A stretch of 19,585 bases of DNA from a candidate division Zixibacteria bacterium SM23_81 (GTDB lineage: Bacteria > SM23-81). The notes under the pieces are model-generated. The model did no database searches. It was not told the origin of the DNA and was given only the letters and a program-made list of their open reading frames with translations. The stretch spans positions 1-19,585 of the forward strand of contig LJUY01000053.1 in NCBI GenBank assembly GCA_001304015.1, read 5' to 3'. The position numbers were made by a program, and so were the translations under genes. This document shows positions 8,111 to 11,844 of this stretch, piece by piece. Position 1 is the stretch's first letter, and each line of letters opens with the position of its first letter.

Positions 8111-9025
8111 ATGACCAAAACAGTTCGCGACAACCTGGTGGCCTATGCTTTTCTGGCCCCATTTCTGGCCGTCTTTTTGACTTTTTTGTTTTACCCCATT
8201 TTTTACTCGCTCTATCTCAGCTTTCATCGGGTAACAGACCTCTACGACGTCTTCGGTAAGATGAGGTTCGTGGGGTTGGACAACTTCGTCCAACTGATCC
8301 ATGACGGCCAGCTGTGGTGGTCCCTGCTGATGACCCTCTACTACGCCGCCCTTGTCATCCCGTTAGGGATCGCCGTCTCCCTGGCCTTAGCTCTCTTGTT
8401 GAACAACCGCCTTCCTTTCCGTTCTCTCTTCCGAAGCGCCTACTTCATGCCCTATGTGCTAGACATGTTCGTAGTGGGTGTGGTTTGGGTTTTGATTTAC
8501 AGCCCCCATTTCGGGGTATTGAATAGACTTCTGCTGCTCTTTGACATCGATGTATTTCTGGAGAAGGGATTTCTGGGGCATCCCCTGAGTGCCATGCCGG
8601 CGGTGGCCGTGGCCAACGTATTGAAAAGCTCTGGTTTTGGCATGGTGCTCTATCTGGCAGCCATGGCCAACATCTCGCCCTCCCTGTATGAGGCGGCGGC
8701 CATGGACGGCGCCGATGGATGGCAACGATTCCGGGCCATCACCTTTCCTCTCCTCAAGCCCGTCACTCTGTTCATGGTGATCATTGGAGTTATCGCTGCC
8801 TTAAATGCCTTTGCCGAGATCTACGCCATGACCGAGGGCGGACCTAACGTGGAGGTCAGGGGTAGGGCTCTAGGAGCTACATGGGTAACCGGGTACTATC
8901 TGTTCAGGACCTTTTACGTGAGCCTCAAGTTGGGATATGCAGCGGCCATCTCCTATGTGCTCCTGATACTCACCTTGATCATCTCGGTGGTAAACATGCG
9001 CCTGTTCCGCACGGAGAGGGCTTAG
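8111..9025 (+). CDS. Sugar-type ABC transporter permease (MalF/UgpA-like)
   Basis: This is a 304-residue inner-membrane permease of the CUT1 type, with about six transmembrane segments (first at roughly 12-35, AYAFLAPFLAVFLTFLFYPIFYSLYLSF). The cytoplasmic EAA loop, which docks onto the ATPase, is seen from about residue 193 as YEAAAMDGADGWQRFRAITF with PLLKPV following. Length is normal for the family. The ATG at 8111 has only a weak TAAGG upstream, but the next permease begins two bases after this stop, so the pair is co-translated. It forms a transporter with the gene at 9028 and the binding lipoprotein at 10597. The sugar specificity cannot be read from the sequence; no ATPase is encoded in the window. 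Confidence 0.92.
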   Translation: MTKTVRDNLVAYAFLAPFLAVFLTFLFYPIFYSLYLSFHRVTDLYDVFGKMRFVGLDNFVQLIHDGQLWWSLLMTLYYAALVIPLGIAVSLALALLLNNRLPFRSLFRSAYFMPYVLDMFVVGVVWVLIYSPHFGVLNRLLLLFDIDVFLEKGFLGHPLSAMPAVAVANVLKSSGFGMVLYLAAMANISPSLYEAAAMDGADGWQRFRAITFPLLKPVTLFMVIIGVIAALNAFAEIYAMTEGGPNVEVRGRALGATWVTGYYLFRTFYVSLKLGYAAAISYVLLILTLIISVVNMRLFRTERA

Positions 9026-9027
9026 TC

Positions 9028-9882
9028 GTGATATCCCAAAACACAAATCGTCGGCCGCAGCGCCCTTTGCCTCCTCAACTGCAAGCCACGCTCCTTTACC
9101 TGGGATTGATCCTGGGGGCCATCGTGGTGCTGTTTCCCTTCTTCTGGATGCTGACCACGGCCCTGAAACAGCCCGGGCAGGCTTACAGTTTAGACCTCTT
9201 GCCCGCCGAGCCCACGCTGGATAATTTCGGACGCATCTTGCGTGATTACGGCTTCGCCCGATATTTTATGAACAGCATCATCGTGGCCACCAGCGCTGCT
9301 TTCCTGGCCACCTTGTTCGCCGCCCTGGCTGCTTATGCCTTCGCCAAGAAGGATTTCCTTCTCAAGAACCAGCTGTTCTTGTTCCTGCTGGCCTCTCTGA
9401 TGATCCCCGGGATGATGTATATGGTGCCCCAATTCGCCATCATCAGCCGCCTGGGCCTCATGAACACGCGCACGGCTATGGTCTTGCCGCATCTCGCCAA
9501 CGTCTTCGGCCTGTTCTTGATGAAGCAGTTCATGGAGACCATTCCGGGTTCACTCATCGACTCCTCGCGCATCGACGGCGCTTCTGAGCTGCAGGTCTTT
9601 CGATCCATCATCGTCCCGTTGTCGTTGCCCATCATCGCCACCCTCTTTTTGTTGACATTCCAGTTCCACTGGGGAAACTTCTTATGGCAGCTCATCGTCA
9701 CCAACAAGGAGTCTCTGTACACCGTGCCCGTGGGCTTGGCTATGTTTCGCGATGCTCATGAGGAGCTAGTGACCCTGAAGATGGCCGGAGCTGCCATCTC
9801 CATTATTCCCATAGGGGTGCTGTTCTTCTTCACACAGAGGTTGTTTATTGAGGGCATGACGAGAGGCGCAGTGAAGGGTTAG
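9028..9882 (+). CDS. Sugar-type ABC transporter permease (MalG/UgpE-like)
   Basis: This is a 284-residue inner-membrane permease, the usual partner of a MalF-like subunit. The first membrane segment (about 18-40) ends in FPFFWMLTTALK, a typical MalG-type N-terminus, and the EAA-type loop appears from about residue 177 as DSSRIDGASELQVFRSIIVPL. The start is GTG at 9028, two bases after the upstream stop, with GGAGAGGG nearby inside the preceding gene. A longer in-frame extension to 8881 lies within the upstream gene and would add no family sequence, so I reject it. Downstream, the expected binding-protein gene is separated by a decayed RAYT element. Confidence 0.92.
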   Translation: MISQNTNRRPQRPLPPQLQATLLYLGLILGAIVVLFPFFWMLTTALKQPGQAYSLDLLPAEPTLDNFGRILRDYGFARYFMNSIIVATSAAFLATLFAALAAYAFAKKDFLLKNQLFLFLLASLMIPGMMYMVPQFAIISRLGLMNTRTAMVLPHLANVFGLFLMKQFMETIPGSLIDSSRIDGASELQVFRSIIVPLSLPIIATLFLLTFQFHWGNFLWQLIVTNKESLYTVPVGLAMFRDAHEELVTLKMAGAAISIIPIGVLFFFTQRLFIEGMTRGAVKG

Positions 9883-9965
9883 TGAAAAGATTCATTGCAA
9901 ATATCAAATTGAAAAAATAACAGTCACAACAGCCAAGGGATATTTGACCTCTGAGAACAAACACC

Positions 9966-9990
9966 GTAGGAGGCATCTCCCGATGCCGAT
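9966..9990 (+). repeat. Left REP hairpin, overlapping RAYT ribosome binding site and start
   Basis: The repeat is GTAGGAGG, stem GGCATC (9972-9977), loop TCCC, stem GATGCC (9982-9987), then GAT. The AGGAGG at 9968-9973 is a perfect Shine-Dalgarno for the ATG at 9983-9985. In RNA that AUG would pair with CAU of the 5' stem arm, so folding should hide the start codon. Confidence 0.75.
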
Positions 9991-10473
9991 ATCCCCGAAA
10001 AGGGAAATCCCCAATAAAGGCCATAGACAACTGCGAAAGCACCGGCATTCTCAAAGAGATCATTTTTATTTCGTCACCACGTGCATTTTCAACAAACAAA
10101 AGCTATTTGTGACAAAGCTTGCAGCACAGGTCGTATTTGACACCATCGATTGGCTGGAAAGGGAAAAACGCATAAGTTGTTATTTTGCCATTTTGATGCC
10201 AGATCATCTTCACCTTATCTTTCAGCTTCTTGGTGAGAAGAGCCTTTCCGAGGTGATGAAGAGCTTAAAAGGATTCACTGGAAGGAAGTTAAAAGGTCAT
10301 ATGGGATTAAGTACGCCAGTCTGGCAGAATCAGTTCTATGATCACCTCATACATGAAGACGAAGACCTGATTGATATCATGACATTTGCTTCTATAATCC
10401 AGTTCGCGCGGGCTTTGTAACAGACCCTTTTGATTATCCATACTGGAAGAGCAAATTCGATCTAGGCAAATAG
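9983..10473 (+). pseudogene. REP-associated tyrosine transposase (RAYT, Y1/IS200-like), frameshifted
   Basis: The gene encodes a Y1-type HUH single-strand transposase. HFYFVTTCIFN lies near the N-terminus, the metal-binding HUH motif is MPDHLHLIF, and the nucleophilic tyrosine should be in VWQNQFYDHLI. The original frame (from ATG 9983) ends at 10420, but the conserved family C-terminus NPVRAGFVTDPFDYPYW is intact in the next frame and ends at the TAG at 10471-10473. A single-base deletion between about 10376 and 10392 explains this. No slippery heptamer is present, so a programmed shift is unlikely; a sequencing error is possible. The reconstructed protein is about 163 residues, normal for RAYTs. 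The ATG at 9983 is preferred over a TTG at 9944 because of the perfect AGGAGG, itself part of the left REP. Confidence 0.8.
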
Positions 10474-10499
10474 CTACTGGTTTTACCTCTAATATCTGA

Positions 10500-10524
10500 A
10501 TCGGGGTCAGGAGACCCCTCCTAC
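10500..10524 (-). repeat. Right REP hairpin, inverted
   Basis: Read on the minus strand it is GTAGGAGG, stem GGGGTC, loop TCCT, stem GACCCC, then GAT. It differs from the left REP in both stem arms by paired (compensatory) changes, so the hairpin is preserved while the stem sequence is not. It lies 27 bases beyond the restored RAYT stop and 72 bases before the solute-binding-protein gene. Confidence 0.75.
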
Positions 10525-10596
10525 AAAAGATATTCGGGAACGAGTTCAAGCAGATCGGTTTGCTTATATGAAAATCGTGCACGCTAAGAGGAAGCA

Positions 10597-11844
10597 ATGA
10601 AAAATTTACAATTTACAATGAGTCTCTTCCTCATCCTCGCAGCCCTCAGCCTCTCCTGCGGAGGCGGCCAAAAGGAGGAGGGTCCCATCACTCTGACCAT
10701 CTGGCAAACTTACAACGACGAGGAAAATGCCCTGTTCCAGGAACTGGTGGCTGAATATCAAGCTACCCATGCAGATGTGACCATCCAGGACACCCGTCTG
10801 CCGTTCATGGGCGCAGAGCCCAAGATCCTCACCGCTTTGGCCACCCGCACCACTCCGGACATCGCCCGGGTAGACGGCTCTTTCGTGCCCAAACTGGCCA
10901 CGCGCAATGCGTTGATGAATCTGGACGACCTGGGCATGGCTGACATAAAGGACGATCTGCTTCCCGTGGCCCTGAGCAGCTGTTTAGCAAACGGCGTCAT
11001 CTATGCCATGCCGGAGCAGGTCAACGGATTGTGCCTGTTCTACAACAAAGCCCTCTTCCGTGCAGCGGGACTTGATCCAGAACGTCCACCCCGCACCTGG
11101 GAGGAATTTATCGCCTTTGGAAAAAAGCTCACCGACCGACAGAAGGGGATTTTCGGCTTTGGAATGCGCAATTCCCTATGGTGGACTTTTCCCTTCTTCA
11201 ACACCTTCGGGGCACCCTTCCTCAGCGAGGACGGAACCCGATGTGTTCTCAACGGCGAGAAAGGAGTGCAGGCCTTCCAGCTGAAGGTGGACCTGTATCG
11301 CAAATACAAGATCGAGGGGGGTGGCTGGAGGGCTGGCGGGATTCGTGATGACATGGGTTTTCAAAATGGCAAATACGCCATGGTCTTCAGCGGTCCATGG
11401 GCCGTTAAGGGCCTCCAGGCTGCGGGCATCGACTTCGGGGTTGGCCTTATTCCCGAGGGGCCAGCGGGGACCTCCACCAACGTGGGCGGAAACGATCTGG
11501 TCATCTTCCGCAGCTGCCAGCATCCAGATAAGGCTTTGAATTTTCTAAAGTTCATGGCCAGCGAGGCCGTCCAGGCCAGGTGGTGCAACGAGCTGGGCCA
11601 GATCCCTGTGAATATAAAGGCTGAGAAACTCTTGGATTTTGAACAACACCCTTACCTCAAGGTTTTCGTGGAGCAGATGAAGACGGCCATCCCCAGGCCA
11701 TCCATCCCCGACTACGACGAGCTGGAAAACATCATGAATCCAGAGATGCAGGCCGCCCTGGACGGCACCAAATCCGTGCAAAAAGCCCTGGATGACGCCG
11801 TCAGGCGCATCAACCAGGAAGTGCTGGGGAAATCCGGCTCATAA
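10597..11844 (+). CDS. Extracellular sugar-binding lipoprotein of an ABC transporter
   Basis: This is a 415-residue family-1 solute-binding protein. The signal peptide ends in a lipobox-like LSLSC with Cys21 as the likely lipid anchor, followed by GGGQKEEG. The mature part starts with the typical ITLTIWQTYNDEENALFQELVAEYQ, continues with a PDIARVDGSFVPKLA hinge-type segment and LCLFYNKALFRAAGLDPERPPRTWEEF, and later has a GKYAMVFSGPWAV block and FLKFMASEAVQARW. This is the order seen in maltose/glycerol-phosphate-type binding proteins. Length is typical. AGAGGAAG lies just before the ATG. It belongs with the two permeases upstream, from which it is now separated by the RAYT element; a read-through transcript or a separate promoter in 10525-10596 would be needed. 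The ligand cannot be named from sequence. Confidence 0.92.
   Translation: MKNLQFTMSLFLILAALSLSCGGGQKEEGPITLTIWQTYNDEENALFQELVAEYQATHADVTIQDTRLPFMGAEPKILTALATRTTPDIARVDGSFVPKLATRNALMNLDDLGMADIKDDLLPVALSSCLANGVIYAMPEQVNGLCLFYNKALFRAAGLDPERPPRTWEEFIAFGKKLTDRQKGIFGFGMRNSLWWTFPFFNTFGAPFLSEDGTRCVLNGEKGVQAFQLKVDLYRKYKIEGGGWRAGGIRDDMGFQNGKYAMVFSGPWAVKGLQAAGIDFGVGLIPEGPAGTSTNVGGNDLVIFRSCQHPDKALNFLKFMASEAVQARWCNELGQIPVNIKAEKLLDFEQHPYLKVFVEQMKTAIPRPSIPDYDELENIMNPEMQAALDGTKSVQKALDDAVRRINQEVLGKSGS

Follow-up and report, generated by a model that had tools for sequence, protein, structure and literature searches.

A RAYT gene whose start codon very likely lies in the stem of its own left REP hairpin

A RAYT (TnpA-REP) transposase gene very likely starts inside the hairpin of the REP at its left edge, which raises the question of whether this hairpin regulates the translation of the transposase or is only carried along with the element. 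The first-pass annotation of the locus proposed that the REP supplies the Shine-Dalgarno sequence, hides the start codon and could act in the mRNA as an off-switch, possibly answering to the RAYT protein itself. The window, i.e. the whole stretch of DNA analysed (19,585 nt), makes up the complete contig G000:C74; the genome has 3.07 Mb, and the phylum was sampled by four genomes.

The left REP and the RAYT gene

The features of the locus are listed in Table 1. The REP, the AGGAGG and the ATG were all found in the sequence where the first-pass annotation had placed them, and the ATG pairs base for base with the CAT of the opposite arm. The AGGAGG is formed by the REP, and only its last 2 bases belong to the stem proper. 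The 25-mer folded with -9.5 kcal/mol, and 4 of 200 shuffled sequences were as good. All REP counts were obtained by pattern searches. A degenerate REP pattern resulted in 20 copies in the 3.07 Mb genome versus 0 for the reversed control pattern, therefore the left REP is a true repeat rather than a chance hairpin. As a short tagged hairpin dispersed in the genome, it is a GTAG-tagged REP.

Table 1. Features of the RAYT locus (positions in the window)
Feature	Position	Strand	Basis
Left (L-type) REP, GTAG-GA-GGCATC-TCCC-GATGCC-GAT	9966..9990	+	Sequence; family 20x in own genome, 0 for control
GTAG tag at the hairpin's 5' foot; the paralog has GTGG	9966..9969	+	Sequence
AGGAGG, Shine-Dalgarno-like; tag, linker and first 2 stem bases; 9 nt 5' of the ATG	9968..9973	+	Sequence; GGGAGG with equal spacing in the paralog
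5' arm GGCATC, including CAT (9974-9976) facing the start codon	9972..9977	+	Sequence, folding
Loop TCCC	9978..9981	+	Sequence
3' arm GATGCC, including ATG (9983-9985)	9982..9987	+	Sequence, folding
ATG, very likely the RAYT start codon	9983..9985	+	Sole usual start available in the paralog; frame and MP... N-terminus common to both genes
RAYT (TnpA-REP) ORF, frame 1, ended early by a frameshift near 10387	9983..10420	+	NF047646 80.1 bits, PF01797, HUH motif PDHLH
Displaced C-terminal part, FYNPVRAGFVTDPFDYPYWKSKFDLGK and stop, other frame	10390..10473	+	Matches LYNPVRAG...DYPFWTSKFNLGQ of the paralog
Right (R-type) REP, inverted, GTAGGAGGGGTCTCCTGACCCCGA; two stem pairs unlike L-type, no ATG	10501..10524	-	Pattern search
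ABC-transporter permease-like gene, upstream neighbour, ends 83 nt before the REP	8881..9882	+	ORF list; family read by eye from the translation

The ORF matched the NCBIfam family REP_Tyr_transpos (NF047646) with a score narrowly above the cut-off of 80 and contains the Pfam Y1_Tnp domain. The HUH motif is present in the window copy and in a paralog of the same genome. Inverted tagged REPs flank the window gene, the L REP at 9966-9987 (+) and the R REP at 10524-10501 (-), and the paralog is flanked likewise. The locus resembles in this the known REPtron, a RAYT with flanking GTAG REPs (Nunvar 2010, PMC2817692; PMC8266576; Di Nocera 2013, PMC3733652), in which a Y1 HUH transposase gene lies between inverted GTAG/GTGG-tagged hairpins that are also dispersed as solo REPs and REPINs.

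Frame 1 stops at 10420, and the conserved FYNPVRAGF runs on in another frame up to the stop at 10471-10473. In the alignment of window 10366-10410 with the paralog and E. coli RayT, the reading frame breaks at the codon corresponding to Y115, the catalytic tyrosine of the E. coli protein. A catalytic tyrosine preceding NP(V/x)(K/R) was not found in the window copy; the paralog has the Y (KYCLYNPVRAG). The window RAYT appears to be a broken member of the family, and an assembly error may also account for the frameshift. Between 8111 and 11844, the neighbours of the RAYT were read by eye as two genes of transporter-permease type and one of solute-binding-protein type. All lie on the + strand, and the placement of the RAYT looks as if it had been inserted in a sugar-type ABC operon.

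The paralog (G000:C22:8627-9106, - strand) is intact, encodes a RAYT of 160 aa with 58% identity to the window copy and scored 120.5 bits with NF047646. Its left REP, GTGG-GA-GGCATC-TCCT-GATGCC, has the ATG at the matching site of the 3' arm, and its GGGAGG is spaced from the ATG exactly as the AGGAGG of the window. The REP blocks of the two genes were identical in 22 of 25 positions, and the identity of the 60 nt upstream was 21.7% (ungapped). A compensated pair distinguishes the two R REPs, GGGGTC/GACCCC versus GAGGTC/GACCTC. The coding DNA was 66% identical, resulting in 76, 76 and 48% for the three codon positions. The lowest identity at the third position, together with a dN of 0.28 against a saturated dS of 4.4, indicates that the RAYT protein of this pair is under constraint.

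No ATG, GTG or TTG was found in the paralog from the upstream in-frame stop to the REP ATG. Lacking any other usual in-frame start upstream, the paralog starts in the stem with as much certainty as a sequence can give, and the REP-stem ATG is very likely the RAYT start codon, as the first-pass annotation had assumed. A true start elsewhere, for example at TTG 9944, would turn the REP into ordinary N-terminal coding sequence or a 5' leader. TTG 9944 is in frame and preceded by AAGGG, and two other RAYTs have the REP inside the N-terminal coding region. However, TTG 9944 was rejected on the evidence of the paralog; of the later starts before the conserved QLRK block, the paralog offers only a GTG at codon 8 and the window none, and the two genes have no similarity upstream of the REP. 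A start outside the stem is consequently regarded as extremely unlikely.

Searches of 386 relatives (next best 42%), of the G319/G042 phylum with 84 genomes (best 45-46%), of viral contigs and of phages revealed no other member of the close subfamily; plasmids contained distant RAYTs only, with the best at 34.8%. The start-in-stem arrangement was thus seen in one lineage and in two genes, one of them frameshifted, and so corresponds to one evolutionary event.

Position of the tagged hairpin in other RAYTs

The survey included 121 RAYT loci with an aligned N-terminus from the own genome, same-phylum relatives and other-phylum genomes. With perfect stems of 5-12 bp, GTAG/GTGG tags only and the start chosen by rule, a tagged hairpin was detected near the start in 70 of the 121 loci; 46 had no such hairpin, and in 5 the start was not assignable. 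The hairpin was located upstream of the start in 66 of these 70 RAYTs, at a gap of 9-221 nt (median 40), and wholly within the N-terminal coding region in two (L089, L106). An ATG in the 3' arm was found in two RAYTs only, the window copy and its paralog. Five further RAYTs have the hairpin 9-14 nt 5' of the start, which is close enough to touch the Shine-Dalgarno region. The nearest outside relatives (36-46% identity, from the phylum with 84 genomes) mostly have their own leader after the REP, e.g. ACTTATAGGAATATGAAATG, and E. coli K-12 rayT has over 90 nt between its upstream REPs and the start.

The arrangement is real but rare, and it is not a general RAYT trait. The generality of a start in the stem was rejected on the 121 loci, and the supposition that the left REP always covers the RAYT start in related genomes failed outside the pair. 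What sets the two genes apart from the remaining 68 RAYTs in which a tagged hairpin was detected is that the 3' arm of their left REP contains the start codon and its head is the Shine-Dalgarno sequence.

Two other hairpin placements were observed in the survey. In L085 and L106 (G119) and in L089 (G003), the left REP falls entirely within the N-terminal coding sequence, and the start codon precedes it. A perfect two-sided palindrome, GTAG...CTAC, was present in the RAYT-like coding region of L003 (G000:C82:4313-4735-), L004 (G000:C22:49345-49662-), L005 (G000:C29:59575-60027-), L094 (G277:C248) and L112 (G323:C42). These palindromes follow the HUH motif (NH[IVLF]H) by a few codons, and their location is roughly constant from genome to genome; they differ in sequence, are read in different frames and are mostly open (L004 is frameshifted elsewhere).

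The earlier remark that no description of this arrangement exists was too strong. In Di Nocera et al. 2013 (PMC3733652), the legends of Fig. 8 and 9 code some of the repeats flanking RAYTs as 5'ov, i.e. overlapping the 5' end of the gene, and a passage of the same article suggests that REPs at the 5' ends of ORFs may act post-transcriptionally. A start codon in a REP stem was not mentioned in the running text of the RAYT/REP literature searched. The 5' overlap of REPs with RAYT genes was already catalogued, and the new part appears to be the start codon within the stem arm.

REPs of the left type without a gene

The L-type REP, GTRGGAGGCATCTCCYGATGCCGA, was present in each of the phylum's four genomes, with 30 occurrences in total when up to 3 mismatches were allowed. 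The ATG was found at the stem position in 20 of the 22 gene-free copies examined, a value that has to be read with the limit of 3 mismatches, which favours near-consensus copies and under-counts diverged or decayed copies lacking the ATG. The possibility that the ATG of a gene-free REP serves as the start of some other gene was rejected, since the ORFs from these ATGs have 6-72 codons and no RAYT similarity. REPINs, consisting of an L REP followed directly by an inverted R REP with no gene, were found at C32:30339-30467 and in many G002 copies; these are dispersed copies and not the window element.

Among 24 distinct L variants, the stem was paired in 94.4% of cells, and one outer pair covaried (GC in 17, AU in 7). 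The asymmetry between the arms of these variants (CAT intact in 18/24, ATG intact in 21/24) was too weak for use. The GTRGGAG Shine-Dalgarno-like head (GTAGGAG/GTGGGAG) is common in unrelated REPs of other genomes. G002 carries 18 L-type copies of a family that is also found in G003 and G001, and no close cognate RAYT with more than 33% identity was found in G002; these copies are either orphan REPs or their RAYT is absent from the assembly.

Because the hairpin, the Shine-Dalgarno-like head and the ATG are kept in gene-free copies and the head is common in unrelated REPs, all three are properties of the REP. An L REP that keeps its ATG where there is no gene means that the conservation is no evidence of a translational switch, and REP mobility explains it.

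The L and R REPs share GTRGGAGRnnTCTCCYGAnnYCGA and are two stem pairs apart. These two pairs make the ATG in the L REP (21/24 variants) and remove it in the R REP (0/29), and in both REPtrons the L REP is the gene-proximal 5' end. The difference hints that the left REP was specialised as a start site and later spread by REPINs, but it could also result from drift or recognition instead of coding.

Predicted folding and the working of the element

The predicted pairing of the ATG was 0.98-1.00 in both the window and the paralog, and at 70 °C the ATG was still 87-96% paired in the model. To open the stretch between the Shine-Dalgarno sequence and the second codon, inclusive, was predicted to require 13.4 kcal/mol in the window and 18.1 kcal/mol in the paralog, compared with a median of 5.9 kcal/mol for 116 RAYTs, among which the two genes ranked 8 and 2, respectively. 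The prediction agrees with the earlier view that the start codon is hidden in the stem, and the real fold may differ from the predicted one. For the start region of E. coli K-12 rayT (L165 1570-1640), pairing was likewise predicted, in this case within a local structure that is not a REP (ATG 0.95, Shine-Dalgarno region 0.74).

The distance from the edge of the element to the ATG is 17 nt. In a search that covered sigma-70-like promoters, no match was found on the + strand upstream of the start within 9850-10600. The locus is probably best described as a compact REPtron in which the left REP is the initiation region, translation is low and limited by structure, and transcription comes from outside. 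The GGAGG of the REP would serve as the Shine-Dalgarno sequence and the ATG of the 3' arm as the start codon of the RAYT. Transcription would depend on the host, because 17 nt leave no room for an internal promoter and a leader and no sigma-70-like match precedes the start; the upstream permease-like gene is the likely source. If transcription enters from outside, every mRNA with the Shine-Dalgarno sequence would also carry the hairpin. The hairpin would be retained mainly as the DNA recognition site of the transposase, and its side effect would be low translation of the RAYT, keeping the protein scarce in a way comparable to IS200 tnpA. Ribosomes, or translation coming from upstream, can melt a hairpin of 6 bp.

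A dedicated autoregulatory switch would go further: the RAYT would recognise the REP hairpin of the mRNA that encodes it and would repress or release translation, tying expression to the number of REPs. We know of no case in which a RAYT binds REP RNA, and any response of the mRNA to the protein is speculative. The start codon inside the stem, the strong predicted occlusion and the conservation in a diverged paralog are consistent with a switch, as is the established binding of such hairpins by RAYTs as single-stranded DNA (PMC8266576). However, the hairpin and the ATG are kept equally well in the gene-free REPs of the four genomes, so that the conservation does not point to a switch and the step from sequence to off-switch does not follow; moreover, in most RAYTs the REP is away from the start. 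Such a switch is considered very unlikely. A related idea, for which we see just as little chance, is that the L REP is a dual DNA/RNA element, a DNA recognition site that also serves in the RNA for feedback at the start codon it covers, with the L type specialised by the two stem pairs. If true, the RAYT would control its own synthesis via the structure that it mobilises.

The opposite explanation is a pure by-product, the start being placed in the REP by the compactness of the element, without the hairpin making any real difference to translation in vivo. This would account for the Shine-Dalgarno-like sequence as an intrinsic part of REPs, given the GTAGGAG/GTGGGAG head of unrelated REPs, and for the ATG of gene-free copies. 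The wide scatter of REP-to-start distances, including REPs within the N-terminal coding region, is also as expected without tight positional selection. However, few of the 116 RAYTs have a predicted opening cost as high as these two, and a zero effect at the start of a transposase would be surprising; the by-product reading is considered rather unlikely. The compact REPtron with structure-limited translation remains the preferred reading. From the interpretation of the first-pass annotation as a whole, the start in the stem and the predicted occlusion are retained, with the paralog in their favour, whereas the generality and the step to a switch are given up, and the gene in the window is frameshifted.

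Structural control of transposase translation has precedents. In the tnpA mRNA of IS200, the sequestration of the ribosome binding site by a stem-loop is established (PMC12594629). Both there and here, the start region of a Y1 transposase is masked by an inverted-repeat hairpin in the 5' part of the transcript, here by prediction, but the hairpin of the present gene is a dispersed REP that contains the start codon and the Shine-Dalgarno sequence. In ISPpu9, a structure of the 5'UTR limits the translation of the transposase (PMC8450116), as is predicted for this RAYT. Unlike the latter, ISPpu9 has a long 5'UTR, an unrelated transposase and control by two sRNAs. Effects of REPs on translation were reportedly described by Liang, Rudd and Deutscher in 2015 (cited in PMC6006769 and PMC8266576), for REPs that lie 3' of a gene and close to its stop codon; here too, translation would be affected by a REP hairpin of the mRNA, with the REP at the start.

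The arrangement exists, is rare and lends itself to testing, but a simpler cause than a switch accounts for its conservation, and the example in the window is a broken gene. Such overlaps should be read with caution, as the hairpin, the Shine-Dalgarno-like head and the ATG persist in REPs without a gene. The paralog and the difference between the L and R REPs provide ready-made mutants. As to the question of why RAYTs remain single-copy and are tolerated by genomes, a RAYT that has its own recognition hairpin as the initiation region would offer a simple, testable reason for low expression.
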